NCBI GenBank assembly: GCA_017860135.1
Contig: JAFNAG010000009.1
Coordinates: forward strand, 1 to 32,368
Source of the DNA: Acidobacteriota bacterium
GTDB taxonomy: Bacteria > Acidobacteriota > UBA6911
Length of the DNA stretch: 32,368 nucleotides
Direction: 5' to 3'
Within the stretch, counting starts at the first letter, position 1. Each line of letters opens with the position of its first letter. The translations under genes and the position numbers were made by a program. Positions 4,200-28,446 of this stretch are shown here, one piece after another. A model generated the notes under the pieces. It was not told the origin of the DNA and ran no database searches. It saw nothing but the letters and a program-made list of their open reading frames with translations.

Positions 4200-5207
4200 A
4201 TGTGCAGCCTTTTTCGTAGGTTTGGCCTGTTTCTGATTCTACCCCTGGTCTTTGGTCTCACGTTTTCGGTGGCCGCTTTCTCCCAGAATCGCATTCTGGG
4301 AGGAAAAGTCACCAACGACAAAGGCGAAACCGTCGTGAACTGCAAGATCCAGATTCTTGGAGTCGGCAGCAAGCGGGAGTTGACCACCAAGACGGACAAA
4401 AAGGGTGAGTGGATTTACATGAACATCCCGACTGGGACTTATAACGTGGTGGCTCGTGCAGATGGTTACTCTCCGGGTTTCCAGGCGAATGTCCAGCCCG
4501 GGCTTTCCTACACCGCCGTCAACATCACCTTGACCCCGGGAGATCCGAACCAGAAGCTCGCCTTCGAACTGACCCCGGAAGAGCAGGAGAAGCTCAGGAA
4601 AGAGATGGAGAAGCAGAAAGAGCGCGGCAAGATGGCGGGCGAAATCAAGGCTGCCTTTGAGGCTGGTCTGGCGCTGTCCGGACAGGGCAAATATGCAGAG
4701 GCGATTGTCGAGTTCAACAAAGCACTCGAGAAGGCTCCCGACGAAGTTTATGTGCTCGCGAATCTCGCCGACGCGTACTTCAAGAACGGGCAGAACCAGG
4801 AAGCGCTGGACACGTATCAGAAAGCCATCGCCTTGAAACCGGACGATGCCGCACTGGTGACGAACCAGGGCGTCGTCCTTGGGAAAATGGGCAAGACGGA
4901 GGAATCCAAGGCGGCTTTCCAGAAGGCGGCGTCGCTCGACCCGGGCGCGGCTGCCCAGAATTTCTACAATCTCGGCGCCACCATGGTGAACAGCGGGCAG
5001 GCGAAAGATGCGGCTGAGGCTTTCCGGCAGGCGATCAAGGCGGATGCCAGTTATGCTGAGGCCTACTATCAGCTGGGCCTCTGCCTGTCCGGGGATCCCG
5101 GCACCATCGGTGAAGCCTTGCAGATGCTCCAGAAATACCTCTCCATCGGCAAGGATCCCACCAACCTCGAAGTCGCCAAACAGCTCATCGCTACTCTGAA
5201 GAAGTGA
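4200..5207 (+). CDS. Secreted protein with carboxypeptidase-regulatory-like domain plus TPR repeats
   Basis: Signal peptide-like N-terminus MCSLFRRFGLFLILPLVFGLTFSVAAFSQ; GGKVTNDKGETVVNCKIQIL...; TPR units (AIVEFNKALEKAPDEVYVLANLADAYFKNGQNQEALDTYQKAIALKPDD). RBS GGAGG 6 nt before ATG 4200. Confidence 0.85.
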   Translation: MCSLFRRFGLFLILPLVFGLTFSVAAFSQNRILGGKVTNDKGETVVNCKIQILGVGSKRELTTKTDKKGEWIYMNIPTGTYNVVARADGYSPGFQANVQPGLSYTAVNITLTPGDPNQKLAFELTPEEQEKLRKEMEKQKERGKMAGEIKAAFEAGLALSGQGKYAEAIVEFNKALEKAPDEVYVLANLADAYFKNGQNQEALDTYQKAIALKPDDAALVTNQGVVLGKMGKTEESKAAFQKAASLDPGAAAQNFYNLGATMVNSGQAKDAAEAFRQAIKADASYAEAYYQLGLCLSGDPGTIGEALQMLQKYLSIGKDPTNLEVAKQLIATLKK

Positions 5208-5314
5208 TTGCAGGCTGGAAAAGGGTTGGGCGGAGCGCATGAACGGGTCCGCCCGATCCTTTGCATGGCTGGTGAGATCCTTCATCAGGCAGGGTATGAT
5301 TCAGATCTGAGGCG

Positions 5315-6028
5315 CTAACTCCTGAAAAAACTCTCCGCACGCCGGCAGCCAACATCCGCCAGGCTCTGCAAAGCCGCCCAGGAAGCTTCCGCCACCATCG
5401 GAGTTCGATCCTTCGTGAGCTCATAGATCCTGTCGAGGATCATTTCCGAGATCTCATTCGGTCTGTGCCAGAAGGCCACTGACAACTCCGCCAGCGCCTG
5501 CGCGCGGATTTCCTGATTGCGATGTCCGGTCAGTTCCACCAGCGCCTCAAGCGATCGGGTTCCGCCCTGCTGGGCAATTGCGCCCAGCGATTCCACGATC
5601 CATTTCAGCATGCGCAACTGCGAAGGCGCGTCGCTGCTCTTTAAGATCGGCAGGAAAAACTCAACGGCAGCATCGTCGCCGATCGCTCCGATCGCCTCGA
5701 TCACGGCAATAAGGAATTCCTGCGATCCGAATCCTTTTACCTTCTGGGCTTTCAGGAATGCCTTCTTGAGATAATCCAGGAACTCCTGATTACCCATGGC
5801 TCCCATCGCATATGCGGCAAACTCGCAGCGCTTGACGTCGGCTTGAGCCAGCATGTTGATCAGAGGGGATATGAACCGGGGATCACGCAGGACACCCAAA
5901 CGGGGAATGATCTCGAAGAGTTCTTCGACACTCCCTGATTCCATGATCAGGAGGCAATCCTGAATGATTTCCTCAGAGAAACGGCAGTGCTTCCTGGAAG
6001 ATATGTTATTCACCGGGACAACATCCAA
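5315..6028 (-). CDS. HEAT-repeat domain protein
   Basis: 237-aa ORF with repeated helical units (LRDPRFISPLINMLAQADVKRCEFAAYAMGAMGNQEFLDYL...; LEALVELTGHRNQEIRAQALAELS). Confidence 0.75.
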   Translation of the reverse strand: MDVVPVNNISSRKHCRFSEEIIQDCLLIMESGSVEELFEIIPRLGVLRDPRFISPLINMLAQADVKRCEFAAYAMGAMGNQEFLDYLKKAFLKAQKVKGFGSQEFLIAVIEAIGAIGDDAAVEFFLPILKSSDAPSQLRMLKWIVESLGAIAQQGGTRSLEALVELTGHRNQEIRAQALAELSVAFWHRPNEISEMILDRIYELTKDRTPMVAEASWAALQSLADVGCRRAESFFRS

Positions 6029-6176
6029 AGCAATCGCAAAAAGATGTCCAACAAAGACCTGATTTCCCCGGCCATTATAAGAGCGATCGGCTCCAATTCA
6101 AGAGGGAAATCGCATTGCACGTCCCCCGCGGGGAGGCATGACCTGCCAGAGCCGCCTGAAAACCATCGGTATCATC

Positions 6177-6437
6177 TTACGCCGGGCGGTCGAGATGTTT
6201 CCGCCGGCATTCCTCGGAGCAGAAGAACAAATCACCGTCCCCCTGTTTCACCCGGAGCGCCAGCCTGGGATCCATGTACATGCCGCAGCAGGGATCCTTC
6301 ACCATTTTTTGCGGCTGCTCGGGATCGGAGGCCGGTGGCGAAGACTTGCCGGTCCTGGCCAGAACGATGCGGAAGGCCCGGAGCAGCATCCACAGCCCCC
6401 AGAGAACGGCAAGGACTCGCAATAAAAACGAGAACAT
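6177..6437 (-). CDS. Small membrane-anchored protein with TRASH/YHS-like metal-binding motif
   Basis: N-terminal TM helix MFSFLLRVLAVLWGLWMLLRAF, then DPCCGMYMDPRLALRVKQGDGDLFFCSEECRRKHL (Cys pattern of PP0621/TRASH-type proteins). Confidence 0.7.
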   Translation of the reverse strand: MFSFLLRVLAVLWGLWMLLRAFRIVLARTGKSSPPASDPEQPQKMVKDPCCGMYMDPRLALRVKQGDGDLFFCSEECRRKHLDRPA

Positions 6438-6655
6438 GTCTCACCGGGAATCGGAAGGAGCGTTCCAGGTGCCGGACACCTACTTTGCCGGCACCGGCAC
6501 CAATGTTATGCATGTTCCGGTACAGGAATCAAGCACGCTTCGTCTCTCCGGCTGCAGAGAGTGCCGATGGATGGGCAATCCTGCCTTATCGGGCATGAGG
6601 AGGCACTTTGATGCGAGACCGGCTTCCATCCGGTCACTGTGCCCGACCTCACCTG

Positions 6656-7345
6656 CTAAAAACGACGCCGGAGATCAGAGAATGCATGCAGTTCGATCAG
6701 GCCCGGGTGGCTCATGGACTCTTCATTCTCGAGCGTCCAGGTATGTTCGTGGGGAATGAAGACCGCGCTCATGCCCGCTGCCAGGGCGGGATTGATGTCC
6801 GAGCGCGGGCTGTTGCCGATCATCCAGGTTCGGATTGGATTCAAACGAAGACGTTCGAGAAGCATCGAATACGCCTGGGAGTTCTTTTCAGCCAGGATTT
6901 CGACGCCGAGAAAATAGCCGCGCAGGTTTGAGTCGCTGATCTTGCGTTCCTGTTCTTGCAGGTCTCCCTTCGTGACCAGGTACAACATGTGGCGGCCCGA
7001 CAGATATTCGAGTGTCTCCGGAACCTCCGGGAAGATTTCAACGGGATGACGGAGGATTGCCAGGGAAAGCTGTTCCACCTTCTCCGGAAGCACCGGGTCG
7101 GCATTGGCGGGCAGGAATCTCCGGAATGTATCTACCAGTGAACGGGTAAAGTTCACGGTGCCGTAGCCGCTGAACGGGATCCGTTGCCGTTCGGTTTCAT
7201 CCAGGACGGCTCTGAAGCGGCTTGCATCCGCGCCGGTCTTCTCCAGCAGCGCCAGAACCTCCCGAATCACACGCTCGTAGTAGATGTTGTTTTCCCAGAG
7301 GGTGTCGTCGGCGTCGATGAGCAGGTTTTGCGCTCTCTCGATCAA
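6656..7345 (-). CDS. HAD-superfamily hydrolase
   Basis: Motif I LLIDADDTLWENN; LYLVTKGD; motif IV-like MIGNSPRSDINPALAAGM. Confidence 0.85.
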   Translation of the reverse strand: MIERAQNLLIDADDTLWENNIYYERVIREVLALLEKTGADASRFRAVLDETERQRIPFSGYGTVNFTRSLVDTFRRFLPANADPVLPEKVEQLSLAILRHPVEIFPEVPETLEYLSGRHMLYLVTKGDLQEQERKISDSNLRGYFLGVEILAEKNSQAYSMLLERLRLNPIRTWMIGNSPRSDINPALAAGMSAVFIPHEHTWTLENEESMSHPGLIELHAFSDLRRRF

Positions 7346-7494
7346 TGGGCCTCCCTTGAGTAGAAAAGGAGGTTACCCGAAAGAATCCAGAATGACAATT
7401 GCCGAAAAGCCGGCGACGGATTACGAATCTTGCGCAACTCCCGCCCCGATTCATGTGATTTGTGACTTTTGTGGCGCGCATTTGGAGTTGTGAT

Positions 7495-25565: not shown

Positions 25566-25594
25566 GGGAACAGGAAGCCCGTGGCATCGTGTAA
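25566..25594 (+). promoter_or_regulatory. Possible ECF-type promoter (GGGAAC-N16-CGTGTAA)
   Basis: GGAAC at 25567-25571 and CGTGTAA at 25588-25594, just after the polA stop and upstream of the ECF sigma gene. Confidence 0.35.
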
Positions 25595-25631: not shown

Positions 25632-26276
25632 ATGGCGGAGGTTCAGGGGGGGGTATTGCCGCTGCAGGAGCTGGAGATTGGACTGCCGCAGTCCGTGCCA
25701 GGCACCGACAATCAGCTTGTGCGCGACTTCATATCCGGCAACGACGCGGCATTCACCCTTCTCGTGACCAAATACAAGGATTCATTGACTAACTATTTGA
25801 ATGTGATGATCGGCAACTACGATATAGCCGCCGACCTTGCGCAGGAGACCTTCCTTCGCGTATATAAGAACATCGGCCGATACAGCAACATGTACCAGTT
25901 TTCGACCTGGCTCTATCGCATCGCTACCAACCTGGCGATCGACGAGATGCGCTACCGCAAGCGACGCGGCCAGGTGTTTTACAATAACGTATGGGACAGC
26001 AGCAGGGCCGCCGATTCCGATCGGCCGGAGATGCAGATCTCGGATGTACGACGCGGGCCAAGAGATGAATTCCTGTGCAAAGAACGAGGTCAGGTGATTG
26101 GTGATGCGATTCGCTCGCTCCCGGAAAAGTACAGGACCGCTTTCGTCATGAAGGAAGTTCAAGAGCTGTCGTATGAGACGATCGCTCAAGTGCTGAAATG
26201 CTCTGTCGGTACAGTCAAATCGCGCCTGCACCGGTCGAGAGAACTCCTCCAGCGCAAGCTGGAACATTACGTATAG
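25632..26276 (+). CDS. RNA polymerase ECF-type sigma factor (RpoE-like)
   Basis: Region 2 DIAADLAQETFLRVYKNIGRYSNMYQFSTWLYRIATNLAIDEMRYRKRR; region 4 LPEKYRTAFVMKEVQELSYETIAQVLKCSVGTVKSRLHRSRELLQRKL. Start uncertain (25581/25599/25632). Confidence 0.92.
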   Translation: MAEVQGGVLPLQELEIGLPQSVPGTDNQLVRDFISGNDAAFTLLVTKYKDSLTNYLNVMIGNYDIAADLAQETFLRVYKNIGRYSNMYQFSTWLYRIATNLAIDEMRYRKRRGQVFYNNVWDSSRAADSDRPEMQISDVRRGPRDEFLCKERGQVIGDAIRSLPEKYRTAFVMKEVQELSYETIAQVLKCSVGTVKSRLHRSRELLQRKLEHYV

Positions 26277-26285
26277 ATTCGGATT

Positions 26286-26993
26286 ATGGACTGCCATACC
26301 TTTCACAAGAGATTGGAAGATTACCTGGATGGCGGATTGGATTTTCCCGGCCGATTCGCGATGGAGCGTCATGCCAGGCAATGCTTCGGCTGTGAAAGAG
26401 ACATCGCCGAGACATTGCGGCTCAAGCAGATGGTCCGTGACATCCGTCGGGTTTCCGCTCCCGCCGATTTCGAAACCTCGCTTCTTGCCAGAATACGGAC
26501 GGATACCTCACGGCATCGTTTCTGGAGGTTGCAAAGCCTGTGGTGGTATGGTTTCGAAAATCTCTCCTGGCGCAAGGTCGGCGTCGGAGCCGCAGCGGTT
26601 ATTCTCGTTGCGGGCATCACCGCGCTGGTGCACTTCGGGAATGGATTCAATCGCCCCGCTGCAATGCAAAATCCGGAAGCCGGTCCTTCGCGCGCTGCGG
26701 TTGGGGAGTCGGACAACCTCCAGGGGCCCGGCCCTGCTATCGCGGCCCGTGCGGTGCCGCCGTCGCGACAGGCCATGCTGGCGGAGATCTCTCCGGTTGC
26801 CGTTGACGGCTCCGGGTTCCGTGTTCAGGATCAATGGGCCACTCCCTATCTGGAACCTGGCGATCTGGACTTTTTTGAATATCTCGTTCCCGTTTCCGGG
26901 GACCGGCAGCTTATTCTCCAGTTGCCGAGGACAATACGCATGCGGTACGCGCAGCCATCGCGCGAATATTATATCCGCAACGTGAGCCATTGA
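26286..26993 (+). CDS. Membrane anti-sigma factor with zf-HC2 domain
   Basis: MDCHTFHKRLEDYLDGGLDFPGRFAMERHARQCFGCERDIAETL (H-x3-C-x2-C), single TM (VGVGAAAVILVAGITALVHF); directly follows the sigma gene. Confidence 0.85.
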   Translation: MDCHTFHKRLEDYLDGGLDFPGRFAMERHARQCFGCERDIAETLRLKQMVRDIRRVSAPADFETSLLARIRTDTSRHRFWRLQSLWWYGFENLSWRKVGVGAAAVILVAGITALVHFGNGFNRPAAMQNPEAGPSRAAVGESDNLQGPGPAIAARAVPPSRQAMLAEISPVAVDGSGFRVQDQWATPYLEPGDLDFFEYLVPVSGDRQLILQLPRTIRMRYAQPSREYYIRNVSH

Positions 26994-27000
26994 ATTGACC

Positions 27001-28446
27001 ATGCCTGCTGCAAGAGTGAAATCTCCCGCCTACTGTTTCCGCCTCTTCCTGCTGGGTGCTGTTCTGGCGATGAACGGGAAGGCGGGGCTGGCACAGGTCG
27101 GCGCGCTCAAGGATTCTGAGCAGACCGCTGTTCGTGTCAACATCCTCACCGAGTATCTGGGATCCCCTGAATCGGTCGTGGAATTTGGCGGTAAGGTAGC
27201 GATTCCGGATTACCGGCCCAGGATCATCAAGCTGTTCCCCTCCACCGGCATCGTGATCGACGGCAAAGGGCATGTAGTAACCTATCTCGGATACCGCTGG
27301 GTGGACATTCACTCCAGAAATCCGCGTGTTGAAATCGTAGATTTCCGTGGCAAGAAATTCCCTGCGGAGCTGATCGGCATCGACCAGAGCGTGAGGATTG
27401 CCGTTGTGCTGTGCCGCGACTGCAATCTGAAGGCGAGTTCTCTTTGTCGGCGCTGCGAAATCAAGGACGGCGCCTTCGTGGTTGCTCCGCTCCTGGACGG
27501 TTCCAATGCTTCCCGGTTCGAGAGCGCCAAAGTGCTCTCGGCCAGCGCACGCGGGGATTCAGCCGGTGGCCGCGAGTGGACGATCCAGGTGAACCGGCCC
27601 CTGAGCCTGGTCGGGGCTCCGATGCTGAACTCTCAAAAACAGGTCATCGGCCTTGTCGCAGATGAGCCGTCCCGGGACTCTTCCGGGGATGCCAGGGTGA
27701 ATGTGACAATCATGCCCGTCGAGCAGATGCTCGGTTCAGCGGACAGGATTATCAAGGCGGGCGGTGATATCCAGAGCGGATGGCTGGGCGTGAAAGTCGA
27801 TTCGGATGCGGGATCGCCATCCGGGGTTGCGGTTACGGAAGTGGAAAAAGAGAGTCCTGCTCACAAAGCGGGTGTGCTCCCCGGCGACATTATGGTGAAG
27901 TGGAACGGGGCGTCGATCCAGGATCCGCTCAAGTACATCAGGATCGTCGAGAATACCCCGATCGGTTCCAAGGCCGTTATTGAAGTGTTGCGTCAGGGAA
28001 GGCCCGTCACGCTCACCGCAATCATCGAGGCCCGCAGACCGCAGGACCCCGAAGAAAAACTGGTGATTGATGTTCAGGATGCGATCGCCCTCCCCCGGAG
28101 TGGACGGGCCTCGTCGGACGCAGAGTTTGTCTCCTTGCTCGGGATCGAAGTCCAGTCGGTGCCGCCGCAGCTGGCTGAATTCCTGCAGATGCCCGGCCAG
28201 ACAGGTCTGCTGGTCATGAGTGTGAAGAAGCAGGCTGCGTTCGATCGCGCCGGCGTGGCTGCGGGCGACGTCATTCTGGACGTGGATGGCACCCGCGTAG
28301 CGGTTCCCCAGAGTTTCTTCGACCACATCAAGTCGCGCGGGTGGGGGAGCCGCATTCTCCTCCGGCTCTGGCGCAGAGGGATCGAACTGAGCAAGGCAGT
28401 TCAACTGCCCCGGCTCCCCGGCTCCTCCCGCAGGCCGTCGCCGTGA
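27001..28446 (+). CDS. Secreted HtrA/Deg-like protein with two PDZ domains, predicted protease-dead
   Basis: Signal-like N-terminus; STGIVIDGKGHVVTYLGYR (HtrA-like strand); PDZ1 SGWLGVKVDSDAGSPSGVAVTEVEKESPAHKAGVLPGDIMVKWNG; PDZ2 TGLLVMSVKKQAAFDRAGVAAGDVILDVDGTRV. Confidence 0.8.
   Translation: MPAARVKSPAYCFRLFLLGAVLAMNGKAGLAQVGALKDSEQTAVRVNILTEYLGSPESVVEFGGKVAIPDYRPRIIKLFPSTGIVIDGKGHVVTYLGYRWVDIHSRNPRVEIVDFRGKKFPAELIGIDQSVRIAVVLCRDCNLKASSLCRRCEIKDGAFVVAPLLDGSNASRFESAKVLSASARGDSAGGREWTIQVNRPLSLVGAPMLNSQKQVIGLVADEPSRDSSGDARVNVTIMPVEQMLGSADRIIKAGGDIQSGWLGVKVDSDAGSPSGVAVTEVEKESPAHKAGVLPGDIMVKWNGASIQDPLKYIRIVENTPIGSKAVIEVLRQGRPVTLTAIIEARRPQDPEEKLVIDVQDAIALPRSGRASSDAEFVSLLGIEVQSVPPQLAEFLQMPGQTGLLVMSVKKQAAFDRAGVAAGDVILDVDGTRVAVPQSFFDHIKSRGWGSRILLRLWRRGIELSKAVQLPRLPGSSRRPSP

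Follow-up and report, generated by a model that had tools for sequence, protein, structure and literature searches.

Organization of the Operon

The window, by which the whole analysed stretch of 32,368 nucleotides of contig JAFNAG010000009.1 from an Acidobacteriota bacterium is meant, contains three consecutive genes which code for an ECF sigma factor, a membrane anti-sigma factor and a protein related to the HtrA/Deg proteases, designated pseudo-HtrA here (Table 1). The ATG at 25632 was inferred as the start of the sigma gene from the homologues, and in-frame starts located further upstream overlap the promoter. The anti-sigma factor is composed of a zinc-binding zf-HC2 N-terminus, one hydrophobic TM-like stretch and a periplasmic tail. 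The placement of pseudo-HtrA in a sigma/anti-sigma operon, as claimed in a preliminary description made from the sequence alone, was thereby confirmed.

Table 1: Features identified at the pseudo-HtrA locus (positions refer to the window).
Feature	Position	Strand	Remarks
Likely ECF-type autoregulatory promoter	25566..25593	+	GGGAAC-N16-CGTGTA, upstream of the sigma gene
ECF sigma factor	25632..26276	+	Sigma70_r2 and Sigma70_r4_2 over cut-off
Membrane anti-sigma factor	26286..26993	+	zf-HC2 over cut-off; conserved in homologous loci
TM-like stretch of the anti-sigma factor	26577-26636		about residues 98-117
Conserved end of the periplasmic tail	26922..26990	+	...YYIRNVSH-COOH; candidate PDZ ligand
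Pseudo-HtrA	27001..28446	+	ATG at 27001, stop codon ending at 28446 (481 aa); signal or anchor at the N-terminus, then the dead protease domain and two PDZ domains
Trypsin-fold domain without His, Asp and Ser	27127..27756	+	about residues 43-252
His strand	27280-27300	+	TYLGYRW; from HtrA alignment
Asp strand	27394-27396 (R132 codon)	+	VRIAVV
Ser strand	about 27601-27627	+	LSLVGAPML
PDZ1	27772..28029	+	about residues 258-343; carboxylate-loop motif GWLGV
PDZ2	28132..28410	+	about residues 378-470

The order of ECF sigma factor, zf-HC2 anti-sigma factor and pseudo-HtrA on one strand was identified in every locus whose contig reaches far enough and spans at least 14 families of the phylum; the sigma factor is 83-46% identical in the homologous operons. 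Both this gene neighbourhood and a promoter-like sequence upstream of it are shown. Autoregulated ECF promoters usually consist of a GGAAC element and CGT separated by a spacer, and GGAAC, a spacer of 16-17 bases and CGT were identified before the sigma gene in most loci for which upstream DNA was available. The exact form occurs once in a sister genome, there at the same operon. When the strict promoter was used for a regulon search of the own genome, one further site was obtained, which is no more than with the backwards control.

An active HtrA is not encoded within the operon. Elsewhere in the genome, genes for an RseP-like M50 protease and for other, active HtrAs are present. For the triad-intact HtrAs sampled from the same and from related genomes, no homologue of this sigma factor or of this anti-sigma factor was identified within the stretch that was read.

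Domain Structure and Fold of Pseudo-HtrA

Pseudo-HtrA is likely to be a periplasmic protein. As an alternative start to the ATG, a TTG at 26995 was also offered by the ORF caller. Both PDZ stretches scored over the Pfam cut-off (PDZ_2, E 6.4e-22), and the Trypsin_2 match of the protease domain was below it (E 0.0033). TIGR02037, the profile for whole HtrA proteins, was matched with an E-value of 3.2e-37 and 128.5 bits, far under the curated cut-off of 416.2. An AlphaFold model with a mean pLDDT of 81.6 retrieved DegQ, DegP, M. tuberculosis HtrA, AlgW and DegS as the top PDB folds in a Foldseek search, so that structure prediction, one of the checks proposed in the preliminary description, recovered the HtrA fold. 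The architecture of pseudo-HtrA is a trypsin fold followed by PDZ domains, as in HtrA/Deg proteins, with the fold being that predicted by the model.

In PDZ1, Gly260 and Gly263 are invariant among 28 homologues, and the carboxylate loop GWLGV is the same as in active DegP-like proteins. At the sequence level, PDZ1 has retained the carboxylate-binding loop, as a DegS/AlgW-type PDZ domain would; binding of a C-terminus by this loop is inferred.

The dead protease domain additionally contains two CxxC pairs, CRDC and CRRC (window positions 27415-27456, residues 139-152). The second pair, C149/C152, is invariant in 14 aligned family members and missing from most of the class. A role as a disulfide, redox or metal site is possible.

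Loss of the Catalytic Triad

In a joint alignment with active HtrAs, in which H, D and S were present in 14/14 active sequences, the same columns of the triad-less homologues contained H in 0/43, D in 1/43 and S in 3/43 rows, and a complete triad was found in none of the 43. It had been claimed before that the His, Asp and Ser strands of pseudo-HtrA read TYLGYRW, VRIAVV and LSLVGAPML, and that all three catalytic residues appear to be absent while two PDZ domains are kept; the strand assignments held in the alignment with active HtrAs, and the retention of the two PDZ domains was confirmed by Pfam. The alignment of homologues, which had been proposed as a further check, showed the loss to be conserved.

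A replacement triad elsewhere in the pseudo-HtrA family was considered and ruled out. The fullest His column anywhere in the alignment contains His in just 20/43 rows, and no His is present among the invariant columns of the homologue alignment; since there is no conserved His column, a family-wide alternative triad is excluded. Likewise, a homologue with an intact triad at this operon position was not found among the loci examined. The two observations that would have refuted the preliminary description, a conserved triad elsewhere or an intact homologue in this position, were therefore not made, and from the absence of both it follows that the loss is old and has been maintained.

With this family-wide and maintained loss of catalytic residues, pseudo-HtrA meets the criterion for an HtrA pseudoprotease, while a non-catalytic role of the protein is inferred. 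The triad criterion for an active HtrA/Deg protease of the S1C type is unmet. From the missing residues it is inferred that pseudo-HtrA is neither such a protease nor a DegS/AlgW-type site-1 protease cutting the anti-sigma factor.

Two copies from outside the class, L053 and L054, have kept the Ser motif (GASGSP and GTSGSP, resp.) and lost His and Asp. They might represent intermediates of triad loss.

Distribution of the Operon

A first scan of genome contigs with the pseudo-HtrA protein gave no matches. A homologue was identified in 14/14 other searched genomes of the same family, with about 30-52% identity, and in 9/10 other sampled families of the class, with 20-30% identity. The reading frame is open over the full length in nearly all of these homologues, whose PDZ domains contain invariant positions and whose place in the operon is fixed. 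When 149 genomes of the phylum were searched with a profile and the best loci were read, triad-less copies at the same operon place were additionally identified in four families outside the class (f26, f39, f43 and f58). A search with the sigma alignment revealed one close named relative and one case from Schekmanbacteria, and the same operon is present in the record "Acidobacteria bacterium isolate Zod_Metabat.95".

In the tree, the 38 dead and the 15 active HtrA copies fall, without exception, on opposite sides of a single branch (100/99). As the root of the tree is not known, a single loss of the triad is compatible with this topology and remains unproven.

In the Schekmanbacteria record (L170), at positions 4395-7376, an ECF sigma factor is followed by a zf-HC2 frame with the C-terminus ...LANY and by an HtrA-like frame which contains PDZ and lacks the triad. 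The arrangement of sigma factor, anti-sigma factor and dead HtrA may thus extend past Acidobacteriota.

The C-Terminus of the Anti-Sigma Factor

The periplasmic tails of the homologous anti-sigma factors vary in length and sequence, with a variable middle part, and their terminal residues belong to the most conserved positions. The terminal residue is H in 30/40, Y in 8/40 and F in 2/40 tails. Ser is found at position -1 in 37 of the 40 tails, and the same number end in S[HY]; at position -2, V, A or I is present in 38/40 (Val in 32/40), and hydrophobic or aromatic residues prevail at positions -5 and -6. An ending of the form [VAI]S[HY] was found in 0/30 other zf-HC2 loci, which were taken from five of the same genomes, with five of the 30 frames being cut off by the end of the locus. 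On this basis, the motif was rejected as a general feature of anti-sigma factors.

It was also considered whether the conservation reflects the ribosome-binding site of the following gene, which was mostly rejected. The codons for Val, His, Tyr and Asn vary synonymously, and the motif persists where a long gap precedes the start of the next gene, for example in L037; selection is therefore mainly on the protein. The Ser at position -1 (window positions 26985-26987) is encoded by an AGY codon in 36/37 tails even though other codons vary, so that some constraint at the nucleotide level is possible.

The tail end resembles the Phi-x-aromatic-COOH peptides bound by PDZ domains of HtrA proteins. 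The PDZ domain of DegS takes YQF and that of AlgW takes WVF, with pockets that accommodate bulky side chains at 0 and -2 (PMC8545111). While the likeness is shown, binding of the tail is inferred, in the absence of binding data. The suggestion that a dead PDZ protein might bind rather than cleave the anti-sigma factor is supported by this ligand-like tail; the conserved C-terminus had not been seen in the preliminary description and constitutes independent support. The co-fold proposed there was carried out as a single-chain model for L025, in which the stop codon between the anti-sigma tail and pseudo-HtrA was read as Gly. The tail remained disordered and undocked, and the block containing NVSH reached a pLDDT of about 33; as the carboxylate is not free in this fusion and few paired rows were available, the model is only weak evidence against binding.

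The C-termini of barrel proteins of these genomes are mostly of the form Phi-x-Phe, with 38/44 being Phe-terminal, which implies that natural competitors for the PDZ domain exist. Genomes G000 and G001 each gave about 50 matches to PF25183, the Oar-like family of outer-membrane barrels.

Proposed Role of Pseudo-HtrA

The main reading, to which a probability of roughly 0.5 is assigned, is that the dead HtrA holds the C-terminus of the anti-sigma factor as its guard and yields to competing C-termini of outer-membrane proteins. The three genes would form an envelope-stress switch consisting of an ECF sigma factor, a membrane anti-sigma factor and a catalytically dead HtrA, in which pseudo-HtrA would be the reader and not the cutter, and the switch would be held by binding. 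One PDZ domain of pseudo-HtrA is predicted to grip the free C-terminus of the anti-sigma factor (RNVSH-COOH) in the periplasm and to protect the tail against cleavage at site 1 and, by RseP-type proteases, at site 2. As unassembled outer-membrane proteins pile up, their mostly Phe-ending C-termini would compete for the PDZ domain; the displaced anti-sigma factor would be cleaved by other proteases, and the freed sigma factor would transcribe the operon again. The sequence in which these events would occur and the sign of the effect (a guard and not an activator) are the weakest points of this scheme.

This reading is favoured because of the triad loss, the HtrA fold, the co-location of the genes, the split between dead and active copies in the tree, the matching tail, the GWLGV loop, the Phe-ending barrels, the RseP-like proteases and the promoter-like element. 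Binding of the anti-sigma C-terminus by a PDZ domain of pseudo-HtrA is inferred and not backed by binding data. Against it stands the terminal His, which is atypical of known HtrA ligands. RseP, an active HtrA or some other PDZ protein could possibly recognise the tail instead.

An alternative ranked below the guard, and possible nonetheless, is that pseudo-HtrA acts as an adaptor or activator, which delivers the anti-sigma C-terminus to a true HtrA or another site-1 protease, or activates such a protease. There is precedent in MamO, a degenerate HtrA-like protein which promotes the proteolysis carried out by MamE, its active partner (PMC4794232), and active HtrAs are encoded in the same genomes; on the other hand, the operon is without an active HtrA gene. 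No evidence presented here separates the adaptor from the guard. It appears unlikely that pseudo-HtrA is merely an effector, namely a sigma-controlled periplasmic chaperone for unfolded proteins, with the tail being read by RseP or an active HtrA. In favour of the effector, HtrAs are known as chaperones besides being proteases (PMC12826053), effectors are often included in sigma operons, and PDZ-containing proteins of the RseP-like and active HtrA types are also encoded. However, the tail motif occurs together with pseudo-HtrA in 40 loci and in 0/30 other zf-HC2 loci despite the presence of RseP and active HtrAs; as the sampling began from pseudo-HtrA, this contrast is only suggestive. A decaying or non-functional HtrA copy would explain why the catalytic residues are gone, but is refuted by the conservation of the family, with its full-length frames, invariant PDZ positions and fixed operon place, and can be all but excluded.

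Extending the guard reading, a bolder proposal is a widespread Acidobacteriota pathway in which an anti-sigma factor with a built-in C-terminal PDZ ligand would be held by a dedicated non-catalytic HtrA, and in which competition by the C-termini of outer-membrane proteins for this PDZ domain would take the place of allosteric protease activation. The evidence falls slightly short of making this the expected outcome.

Comparison to Known Systems

The operon resembles the RpoE-RseA-DegS system of E. coli and the AlgU-MucA-AlgW system of Pseudomonas in combining an ECF sigma factor, a membrane anti-sigma factor and a periplasmic PDZ protein of the HtrA fold, and it shares with them C-terminal peptides as the likely signals (PMC8545111). 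While DegS and AlgW contain one PDZ domain and are active proteases triggered by a peptide, pseudo-HtrA contains two PDZ domains and no triad. Unlike in these systems, its gene is part of the sigma operon, and it is the anti-sigma factor itself that carries the peptide-like end. The protection of the anti-sigma factor, which is the role of RseB/MucB, may fall to pseudo-HtrA on an unrelated fold, with both the binding and the blocked cleavage being inferred; the RseB fold criterion is unmet, the fold of pseudo-HtrA being that of HtrA. DegS and AlgW are the textbook PDZ-controlled proteases starting an ECF stress response. A deeply conserved operon with a dead HtrA, retained PDZ domains and a matching anti-sigma C-terminus would show that an HtrA can be employed for sensing alone, in the absence of cleavage. 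In addition, a candidate envelope-stress regulator is named for a large and little-studied phylum.

Maintained HtrA pseudoproteases are already known from MamO, the magnetosome pseudoprotease of Magnetospirillum, which likewise has a degenerate, selected, non-catalytic HtrA-like protease domain (PMC4794232). MamO has kept His and Asp, carries Thr in place of Ser, binds metal and is encoded in the magnetosome island (PMC4794232). In contrast, pseudo-HtrA has lost all three residues and keeps two PDZ domains, and its proposed partner is an anti-sigma factor. What is new here is the conserved, PDZ-ligand-like end of an anti-sigma factor beside a dead HtrA. No description of a triad-less HtrA in an ECF operon was found in the open-licence literature searched. 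In the sigE-rseA-htrA region of Mycobacterium, an HtrA gene is located near the genes for an ECF sigma factor and an anti-sigma factor (cf. PMC10027907, PMC3062566). The HtrA encoded there is regarded as an intact protease. The operon described here differs from that region in phylum and in architecture.

In three other ECF loci of Acidobacteriota (L143, L144 and L165), the sigma gene is followed by a gene for a PDZ protein, either directly or after a different membrane protein; at L144 and L165 this is a PDZ-only protein without any protease domain. These loci may constitute a parallel PDZ-regulated sigma system.
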